From the NCBI GenBank assembly GCA_018815765.1, contig JAHIWM010000021.1, forward strand, positions 1-33,158: a stretch of DNA of 33,158 bases. Reading direction: 5' to 3'. The notes below the pieces were generated by a model. The model was not told where the DNA came from, made no database searches, and was given only the letters and a program-made list of their open reading frames with translations. Position 1 is the stretch's first letter; the number at the start of each line of letters is the position of its first letter. The position numbers were made by a program, and so were the translations under genes. The DNA is from Gammaproteobacteria bacterium. Lineage in GTDB: Bacteria > Pseudomonadota > Gammaproteobacteria > Enterobacterales > Alteromonadaceae. Positions 28,854 to 31,254 of the stretch are shown in pieces.

Positions 28854-29888
28854 GTGATAGCTGTGCTGACTTCTGAGTATTTAACCTGCCCTGATCTTTT
28901 TGCCGATACTGTAGTCGACTGGCAAAAAACCGATGGCCGTAATGCCTTGCCATGGCAACAAGACTCCAGTCCTTACCGGGTGATGGTCAGCGAACTGATG
29001 TTGCAGCAAACTCAGGTCACTACAGTGATCCCTTATTTTCAGCGCTGGATGCAAAAACTCCCTGATATTCATGCCTTAGCAACTGCTGATACCGACACTG
29101 TAATGGCGTTATGGCAGGGCTTAGGTTATTACGCCAGAGCCCGTAATTTACATAAAGCCGCTAAATACATAGTGTTTGATTTAGGCGAGTTTCCTTTTGA
29201 ATTAAATGATTTATTAACTATTCCCGGTATTGGTCGTTATACAGCAGGTGCTATTCGCTCTTTTGCTTATGATGCTTATGGCCCGATAGTGGATGGGAAT
29301 GTAAGGCGTTTATTTTGCCGTTTATTTGGCATCGAAGGTGTACCAACCACTTCTGCAGTGGATAAAAAGTTGTGGGCTTTGGCCGATTTATTAACGCCAA
29401 AACAAAACAATAGACGTTTTGCTCAGGCACTGCTGGACTTAGGCGCAACTGTTTGCAAACCCAAACAAGCGGATTGTTTAAGTTGCCCACTTCAAACCCA
29501 GTGTGTGGCTTTTAATACTGGCCGGGTAGCAGAGCTACCAACAGCTAAACCTAAAAAAGCCACCCCAACCAAAGCAGGACATTTTTTGTGGATAGAGCAA
29601 GGCGATAAGCTGTTGCTGCAAAAAAGACCAGACTCCGGCATCTGGGCTGATTTATGGTCTTTACCCCAGGTAGATGAAAGGGCCGAAGCTTTGTCGCAAG
29701 CCAAACTACAGGGCCAGTTTCAGCATGTGTTTTCGCATTACAAGTTAGATGCTTCGGTCTGGCATCCGGTGTCAGGTGTATCCGAGCCTGCAGGCAGCAG
29801 TTGGTATAACAAAGATCAAGTGATGGAGATTGGTTTACCAGCCCCTATCCGCAGCTGGATTGAAAAGAACTGGCTGAATAAAAGCTAA
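28854..29888 (+). CDS. mutY: A/G-specific adenine DNA glycosylase
   Basis: A 344-residue base-excision repair enzyme that removes adenine mispaired with 8-oxoguanine. The catalytic Glu is in 'ELMLQQTQV', the catalytic Asp in 'VDGNVRRLF', and the helix-hairpin-helix is 'LLTIPGIGRYTAGAI'. Four cysteines spaced C-x6-C-x2-C-x5-C ('CKPKQADCLSCPLQTQC') bind a 4Fe-4S cluster. The C-terminal NUDIX-like domain (about 235-340), with 'FQHVFSHYKLDA', recognises 8-oxoguanine. The start codon is GTG at 28854 with a weak ribosome-binding site; GTG at 28863 is possible. It is followed by yggX, the same order as in E. coli. Confidence 0.96.
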   Translation: MIAVLTSEYLTCPDLFADTVVDWQKTDGRNALPWQQDSSPYRVMVSELMLQQTQVTTVIPYFQRWMQKLPDIHALATADTDTVMALWQGLGYYARARNLHKAAKYIVFDLGEFPFELNDLLTIPGIGRYTAGAIRSFAYDAYGPIVDGNVRRLFCRLFGIEGVPTTSAVDKKLWALADLLTPKQNNRRFAQALLDLGATVCKPKQADCLSCPLQTQCVAFNTGRVAELPTAKPKKATPTKAGHFLWIEQGDKLLLQKRPDSGIWADLWSLPQVDERAEALSQAKLQGQFQHVFSHYKLDASVWHPVSGVSEPAGSSWYNKDQVMEIGLPAPIRSWIEKNWLNKS

Positions 29889-29950: not shown

Positions 29951-30223
29951 ATGTCCCGTCAGGTATTTTGTGTTTATTTGCAAAAAGAAGCAGCAGGTTT
30001 AGATTTTCAGCTGTACCCGGGTGAGCTTGGCAAAAAGATTTTCGACAGTATCAGCAAAGAAGCATGAGCTTTATGGCAGTCGAAACAGATTATGCTGATC
30101 AATGAAAAAAAGCTGAATATGATGAATCTGGAACACCGCAAGTTGCTGGAAGAACAGATGCAATTGTTTTTATTTGAAGGCAAAGAAGTTCAGATCGAAG
30201 GTTACGTTCCTAAAGCCAAATAA
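29951..30223 (+). pseudogene. yggX: Fe(2+)-trafficking protein YggX gene with in-frame TGA at the Trp39 codon
   Basis: Read through the stop, this 90-codon frame matches YggX (E. coli 91 residues): start Met-Ser-Arg-Gln-Val-Phe-Cys, then '[20 protein letters not shown]', then '[23 protein letters not shown]' and '[19 protein letters not shown]'. Codon 39 (30065-30067) is TGA where homologues have TGG, in 'KEA-W-A-x-W-Q'. No frameshift or other stop occurs. The gene follows mutY by 62 bp, its usual neighbour, with a strong GAGGTGA ribosome-binding site and its own terminator. As written, translation would give a 38-residue peptide. YggX protects iron-sulfur clusters against oxidation. The TGA may be a real nonsense mutation, a sequence error, or, less likely, read-through. 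Confidence 0.93.
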
Positions 30224-30238
30224 ATCCAGCAAATCTCT

Positions 30239-30272
30239 AAGGCGTGGCTGGTTTAAAGTCACGCCTTTCTTT
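30239..30272 (+). terminator. Intrinsic terminator after yggX
   Basis: The arms AAGGCGTG (30239-30246) and CACGCCTT (30260-30267) form an 8-bp stem with a 13-base loop, followed by TCTTT. It lies 16 bp past the yggX stop (TAA) and 50 bp before gcvA, so it should end the mutY-yggX transcript. Confidence 0.8.
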
Positions 30273-30321: not shown

Positions 30322-31254
30322 ATGGCTCGGCGCTTACCCCCTCTTAATGCGTTAAAGGCTTTTGAAACTGCGGCCCGTCATCTTAGTTTTACTAAAGCGG
30401 CTGAAGAGATGTTTGTTACTCAGGCTGCTATTAGTCATCAGATCAAAGCCCTGGAAGACCATTTAGGTTTAAAGCTGTTTATGCGGAAGAACCGCTCTTT
30501 GCTTTTAACCGAAGAAGGACAGAGTTACTTTTTAGATATTAAAGAAATTTTTCTGCAGCTGCATGAAGCCACAGAGAAGTTATTAGCTCGTGGTGCCAAA
30601 GGCTCTTTAACTGTCAGTTTGCAGCCAAGTTTTGCTATTCAGTGGCTGGTGCCGCGTTTAAGTTTATTTAGTGAAGAGCATTCCGACATAGACGTGCGGA
30701 TTAAAGCGGTCGACTCAGACGAAGGTTCATTAACAGACGATGTAGACGTAGCTATTTATTATGGCCGCGGCAGCTGGCGTAACTTGCATGCCGACAAACT
30801 GCACACTGAATACTTACTGCCGGTATGTTCGCCTTTGTTATTAAACGGCGCTAAGCCATTAAAAGATGTAGCGGATTTACGTCACCATACTTTGTTGCAT
30901 GACGGTTCGCGCCAGGCCTGGAAAGATTGGTTTGTCGGACAAGGCTTTAAAAACTTTAACGTCAATCAGGGGCCGATTTTTTCACATACAGCTATGGTAT
31001 TGCAGGCCGCTATTCATGGTCAGGGGGTGGCTTTGGCGCATAACGTAATGGCAAGACCAGATATTAACTCAGGTCGCTTAATAGTGCCGTTTCACCATGT
31101 ATTGCTGAGTAAAGACTCGCATTATCTGGTGTGCCGTGAAAACCAGACTGAGCTTGGTAAAATTGTTGCCTTCAGGCAGTGGATGGCGAAACAGGTTGAG
31201 CTGGATCAGCAGGACTTTGCTGAACAACATTTTAATAATTCGACACCGGATTAA
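30322..31254 (+). CDS. gcvA: LysR-type regulator GcvA (glycine cleavage system)
   Basis: A 310-residue LysR-family regulator. The N-terminal helix-turn-helix (about 6-65, 'NALKAFETAARHLSFTKAAEEMFVTQAAISHQIKALE' in segments) and the following 'RSLLLTEEGQSYFLDIKEIF' are almost the same as in E. coli GcvA. The effector domain keeps 'LPSFAIHWLVPRL'-like 'QPSFAIQWLVPRL', 'DDVDVAIYYGRG' and 'GPIFSHTAMVLQAAIHGQGVALA'. GcvA activates the gcvTHP operon with glycine and represses it with purines. It is first in a run of four rightward genes ending in rlmM; in E. coli gcvA also precedes ygdD and rlmM. Confidence 0.95.
   Translation: MARRLPPLNALKAFETAARHLSFTKAAEEMFVTQAAISHQIKALEDHLGLKLFMRKNRSLLLTEEGQSYFLDIKEIFLQLHEATEKLLARGAKGSLTVSLQPSFAIQWLVPRLSLFSEEHSDIDVRIKAVDSDEGSLTDDVDVAIYYGRGSWRNLHADKLHTEYLLPVCSPLLLNGAKPLKDVADLRHHTLLHDGSRQAWKDWFVGQGFKNFNVNQGPIFSHTAMVLQAAIHGQGVALAHNVMARPDINSGRLIVPFHHVLLSKDSHYLVCRENQTELGKIVAFRQWMAKQVELDQQDFAEQHFNNSTPD

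Follow-up and report, generated by a model that had tools for sequence, protein, structure and literature searches.

The yggX gene of a Rheinheimera genome carries an in-frame TGA at codon 39 of a frame that is otherwise open and collinear with that of its relatives. The interruption probably represents a young nonsense allele of a gene that is dispensable, produced by a recent single-base change in the only yggX found in this genome. The window, the whole stretch of 33,158 nucleotides analyzed here, is one contig (C167) of a genome, G000, of 4.1 Mb in 287 contigs that is 91% complete. The nearest named sequences belong to Rheinheimera (faecalis YR1, A13L, 1928-s, and tangshanensis), and the nearest genomes, G021 and G016, share 95% identity with G000 over 1,251 bases.

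Features of the yggX region, in positions of the window
Feature	Positions	Strand	Remarks
mutY (HhH-GPD + NUDIX_4), upstream neighbor	28854..29888	+	open frame, TAA end
yggX frame (Iron_traffic, PF04362)	29951..30223	+	90 codons and a terminal stop; broken at codon 39
yggX part 5' of the stop	29951..30064	+	38 residues, contains Cys7; PF04362 positions 1-38, E 3.6e-15
in-frame TGA, yggX codon 39	30065..30067	+	congeners (n = 21): Trp codon in 11, Phe codon in 10
yggX part 3' of the stop	30068..30220	+	51 residues, open frame; PF04362 positions 41-87, E 1.2e-16
run of adjacent differences giving Q72L	30163..30166	+	3 of 4 bases private against the 11 nearest relatives
intrinsic-terminator-like stem 3' of yggX	30239..30267	+	11 pairs
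LysR-type regulator, downstream neighbor	30322..31254	+	

An interrupted yggX frame seen in one genome

Translation of 29951-30223 yields 38 residues up to a first stop and 51 more before the terminal one, and the TGA at codon 39 denies the gene an uninterrupted open frame. With the stop read through, the whole frame matches the PF04362 profile at an E value of 1.9e-36 over positions 1-87 of 88, with one TGA inside, and each piece on its own is a match far over the cut-off. The yggX frames of all 21 congeners, each read singly, are open and align without gaps, with an internal stop in none of them; together with the independent matches of both halves, this places the match beyond chance. Upstream of the ATG, a GAGG six bases away was read by eye. 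The original prediction, made from the letters of the window, described a frame collinear with its relatives, a TGA at codon 39, and an intact ribosome-binding site and terminator. Translation, the profile, and the gapless alignment confirm the first two points, and the GAGG and the 11-pair stem at 30239-30267 bear out the third.

The family to which the frame belongs is that of YggX, a probable Fe(2+)-trafficking protein (PF04362; PDB 1yhd, 1xs8, 2mzy, and 1t07), which protects against oxidative stress and has a critical cysteine near its N-terminus (PMC11078426). Both pieces resemble this protein and Cys7 is kept. In contrast with other members, the frame is broken at codon 39, and no second copy compensates in the assembly of G000, where 29951-30223 is the sole PF04362 match.

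The stop sets G000 apart at each level of comparison. PF04362 is found in 95 of 98 relatives, and an internal stop occurs only in G000 among those 95. A pattern for TGA at codon 39 matches one of 395 family genomes, namely G000, in a sample drawn from the larger family; the TGG form of the same pattern reaches 276 of the 395, as these patterns skip genomes with Phe39 or other codon choices. The claim of uniqueness rests on the profile search of 98 relatives, the patterns in 395 genomes, and the 21 congeners. At the level of the class, stops were read in the best ∼150 of the matches from 343 genomes, so that interrupted frames among weaker matches may have escaped notice. Comparison with close relatives had been proposed as a check from the outset, and its result leaves G000 as the only interrupted carrier.

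Codon 39 itself is less uniform than had been supposed. The genus consists of a Trp39 group, in which all 11 members use TGG, and a Phe39 group. Across 121 loci, a set that includes at least 14 pairs of rows from the same contig, residue 39 is Trp in 97, Phe in 24, and Cys in none, and Cys7, retained in G000, is present in every locus. The conserved feature at residue 39 is therefore an aromatic side chain rather than Trp itself, and the earlier description of a conserved Trp39 was overstated: Trp39 is not invariant, with Phe in 10 of 21 congeners and in 24 of the 121 loci.

A probable nonsense allele, a possible sequence error, and the state of the frame

A single-base change would have produced the TGA in a frame otherwise left collinear and open. 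Most ribosomes would then stop at codon 39 and release a 38-residue fragment that keeps Cys7 but amounts to less than half of the protein, and YggX would be lost or strongly reduced. Some readthrough of UGA by tRNA-Trp is possible and would restore the residue of the nearest relatives. Such a nonsense allele would be tolerable, judging by the number of relatives that lack yggX. If a single base were wrong in a working yggX, the sequence would be hard to distinguish from that of a nonsense allele. The original prediction named a recent change, an error, and readthrough as the candidates; that list is the right one, and the relatives add support for a recent change restricted to G000.

The frame shows few signs of decay. 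Relative to G021, the closest relative, it has no indel, seven synonymous codon differences, and two coding changes, W39* and Q72L. An identical YggX protein is encoded in five relatives (L022-L025 and L027). As expected of a pseudogene formed by nonsense mutation, the frame stops early where the orthologues of close relatives read on unbroken. When relaxed selection was tested for, a single private residue change was found, Q72L, which lies 3' of the stop beside the seven synonymous differences to G021. Site 72 is Leu in one of the 121 loci and Gln or Lys across the 21 congeners. Judged from sequence, Q72L would be weak evidence of a slight relaxation of selection on yggX. The run of differences at 30163-30166 spans codons 71-72 and comprises one synonymous change and Q72L; these adjacent changes possibly represent a multi-base event or a local assembly mix. 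Decay of yggX is not established, since the frame holds no second clear lesion, and the earlier view that the remainder of the frame is clean holds with the exception of Q72L.

The real yggX would be intact if the TGA came from faulty sequencing or assembly, or from a minority allele that entered the consensus of a metagenome-assembled genome. This explanation is unlikely, although it ranks second and draws on several observations. Only one base creates the stop and the frame is clean elsewhere, TGA at codon 39 occurs in one of the 395 family genomes, and the run of private bases at 30163-30166 could stem from mixed strains. The genome, fragmented and 91% complete, looks like a metagenome-assembled genome; of 56 contigs sampled, 10 measure 2.0-2.7 kb and none falls below 2,072 bases. 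A second gene of G000 also looks damaged: at L179:233-1263 (contig C45), a gene of unknown function, 342 amino acids long in G021, appears frameshifted into ORFs at 961-1263 and 233-967.

The quality of the assembly was gauged by comparing ORFs between G021 (1.64 Mb) and G000 (632 kb, including the window) in both directions. At 60% coverage and 80% identity, 184 of 1537 G021 ORFs were matched in G000, of which 173 (169 kb) with differences mainly at third codon positions were kept and 11 without third-position bias were set aside. Stops were counted between 15% and 90% of ORF length; those in the first 15% or the last 10% were set aside, and stops near ORF ends affected four coding-type ORFs in each direction. 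Mid-gene stops are present in 2 of the 173 ORFs in G000, one being yggX and the other lying within a compensated indel pair, by appearance an alignment effect. The reverse direction likewise gives 2 of 173, one again within a compensated indel pair. Outside indel pairs, one ORF in 173 has a clean mid-gene stop in each direction, and in G000 that ORF is yggX. Eight further G000 ORFs have an uncompensated indel in the first 120 or last 10 bases. Within the window, 25 G021 ORFs were matched; yggX is the only one with an internal stop, and a one-base indel lies close to the start of another.

These counts argue against an error as the source of the TGA. One clean mid-gene stop in 169 kb is no more than the reverse comparison gives with G021, a single-contig genome, and in other genes most differences affect third codon positions, the pattern of real divergence. 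The assembly of G000 is therefore not visibly error-ridden, as the 169-kb comparison shows one clean mid-gene stop per direction, although a single error in this stretch could still account for the TGA.

TGA as a stop codon and the family tRNA-Trp

TGA functions as an ordinary terminator in these genomes, as the original prediction had assumed. Of 125 orthologous ORFs, 33 end with it in G000 and G021 alike; it also closes 2 of 20 ORFs checked in the window and, in the G021 sequence compared, 304 of the 1200 ORFs that reach 150 amino acids or more (25%). The prfB frame is open. Reassignment of UGA at codon 39, or its use for selenocysteine, is extremely improbable. The only observation in its favor is the in-frame TGA itself, against which stand the termination of 33 of 125 orthologous ORFs by TGA, the open prfB, and the presence of Trp or Phe, and never Cys, at residue 39 of the loci compared. 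Across the genus, the top matches to the tRNA-Sec model score up to 49.2 bits, where the cut-off is 47; those inspected, one each from G009, G011, and G021, are tRNA-Ser(UGA); in G000, 120 of 258 candidates were scored with this model. The tRNA search of G000 listed 48 matches with 150 of 258 candidates scored, and no tRNA with the anticodon UCA was seen among those examined, a part of the 48 matches in an incomplete genome. Reassignment and selenocysteine are both unsupported, because TGA terminates ORFs, prfB is open, the only tRNA-Trp gene found in G000 has the anticodon CCA, and the three tRNA-Sec matches inspected are tRNA-Ser.

Programmed recoding through a downstream hairpin was considered and rejected. 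The folds are weak, at -8.2 kcal/mol for 66 bases and -4.8 kcal/mol for 44 bases, values obtained with no shuffle control.

The native tRNA-Trp offers a further route by which the change could be nearly silent, if it reads UGA as Trp often enough. Genes for tRNA-Trp(CCA) are located at L275:961-1037 in G000 (contig C129) and, as the tufB-side copy, at L203:15759-15835 in G021. In four genes compared position by position, the family tRNA-Trp has A24 in the D stem, where it pairs with U11, and G27 facing A43, so that the anticodon stem retains only four Watson-Crick pairs. A pattern search, counted by eye, found A24, G27, and A43 in all 101 tRNA-Trp matches from 55 of 59 family genomes; the pattern is without a match in 28 of 98 genomes, four of them in the family. 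Among 17 tRNA-Trp matches from other families of the order, 4 are of the same type and 13 have G24, 12 of the latter with a Watson-Crick 27:43 pair. Counted by eye, A24 and the unpaired G27/A43 coincide in 105 of 105 A24 matches, and 27:43 is paired in 12 of 13 G24 matches. The lack of a Watson-Crick 27:43 pair is shared by G000's own gene at L275 and the family matches.

This tRNA type is already known, and its presence in Rheinheimera and its family is read here from sequence. A 4-base-pair stem occurs in 8.9% of bacterial tRNA-Trp(CCA) genes, and 2,414 of those 3,438 genes carry A9C and/or G24A, the latter being the Hirsh mutation (PMC13092985). The family tRNA-Trp resembles these genes in its anticodon CCA and in lacking a Watson-Crick 27:43 pair. 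It differs from the 'Blastocrithidia-like' set of that study in adding A24, which places it in the group of 2,414 with A9C and/or G24A (PMC13092985). Unpinning 27:43 of Escherichia coli tRNA-Trp by C27A raised UGA readthrough ∼2.5-fold on overexpression, and of 19 orders that have only tRNA-Trp with the 4-base-pair stem, 13 use UGA less often as a stop (PMC13092985). According to the same source, effects at native levels remain to be assessed. The words Rheinheimera, Alteromonad, and Shewanella are absent from the main text of PMC13092985, and the papers found on tRNA and UGA in Rheinheimera are, judged by their titles, unrelated.

A suppressor tRNA private to G000 was also considered and rejected. 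L275 differs from L203 by a compensated 7:66 pair, yet this form is shared elsewhere: the 77 bases of L275 recur unchanged at the corresponding position in G016 and in G021, and a match with its 7:66 form was found by eye in each of 22 genus genomes. The form is therefore not private. The tufB-side copy, the second of two in G021, was not found in the G000 assembly with 150 of 258 tRNA candidates scored, and may lie in its unassembled part.

Readthrough frequent enough to make the change nearly silent is improbable. In its favor, A24, G27, and A43 are present in 101 of 101 family tRNA-Trp matches and are features reported to raise UGA readthrough (PMC13092985); decoding as Trp would also restore the residue of the nearest relatives exactly, and the downstream frame is still open. 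However, TGA still ends 304 of 1200 G021 ORFs, the base after the UGA is G, the downstream folds are weak, and an earlier in-vitro test cited in PMC13092985 showed no readthrough of UGA with C27A as the only change. The tRNA-Trp type is family-wide and hence does not explain a stop in G000 alone. A broader version, in which Trp-to-UGA changes are nearly neutral through the family tRNA-Trp, yggX is working in a bacterium that keeps UGA as a stop, and the internal UGA is an early, reversible step to ambiguous UGA decoding, would be consistent with the same tRNA features and is itself very doubtful.

Backup stops provide a test of leakage on a larger scale. In G021 ORFs, an in-frame backup stop lies within five codons in 98 of 304 cases after TGA and in 180 of 741 after TAA (raw p 0.009). 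After removal of genes that have a neighboring ORF within 18 bases, a control that dropped 457 of 1200 ORFs, the figures are 48 of 148 after TGA and 124 of 474 after TAA, and the excess is not significant (p 0.14). Comparison of backup stops after TGA with the other two frames under the same control gives p 0.18. As the excess lost significance without close neighbors, functional readthrough is speculative. The 25% usage of TGA and the non-significant backup stops after control speak against strong UGA leakage.

Cost of losing yggX and its genomic setting

The consequences of a yggX nonsense allele depend on how dispensable the gene is. A PF04362 match is lacking in 3 of 98 relatives and in 26 of 369 class-level genomes. 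Of these 26, 17 belong to the 314 genomes with at least 90% completeness and at most 5% contamination. Within E. coli, 5374 of 5426 genomes have a full-length yggX DNA match, a count that reflects match length and not internal stops. The loss of yggX had been put forward as notable; the case is weaker than claimed, with no PF04362 match in 26 of the 369. As a nonsense allele, the stop is of minor importance, a further recent loss of a gene that is dispensable. Were it present in the organism and partly read through, it would provide a natural test of UGA leakage at native levels by a tRNA-Trp with A24 and a 4-base-pair stem.

No literature on a premature stop in yggX was found. In-frame stops in bacterial genes are widespread and short-lived (PMC7918605), and the gene described here resembles such cases, its frame being conserved apart from one in-frame stop. 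In contrast, the large-scale study reported in PMC7918605 used stops present in at least two species, and the yggX stop is present in one genome.

In the original prediction, the position beside mutY was part of what would make the loss notable. Within gammaproteobacteria, mutY is the immediate 5' neighbor of yggX (PMC11078426); the locus resembles other gammaproteobacterial yggX loci in having mutY upstream, and the arrangement is the ordinary gene order.
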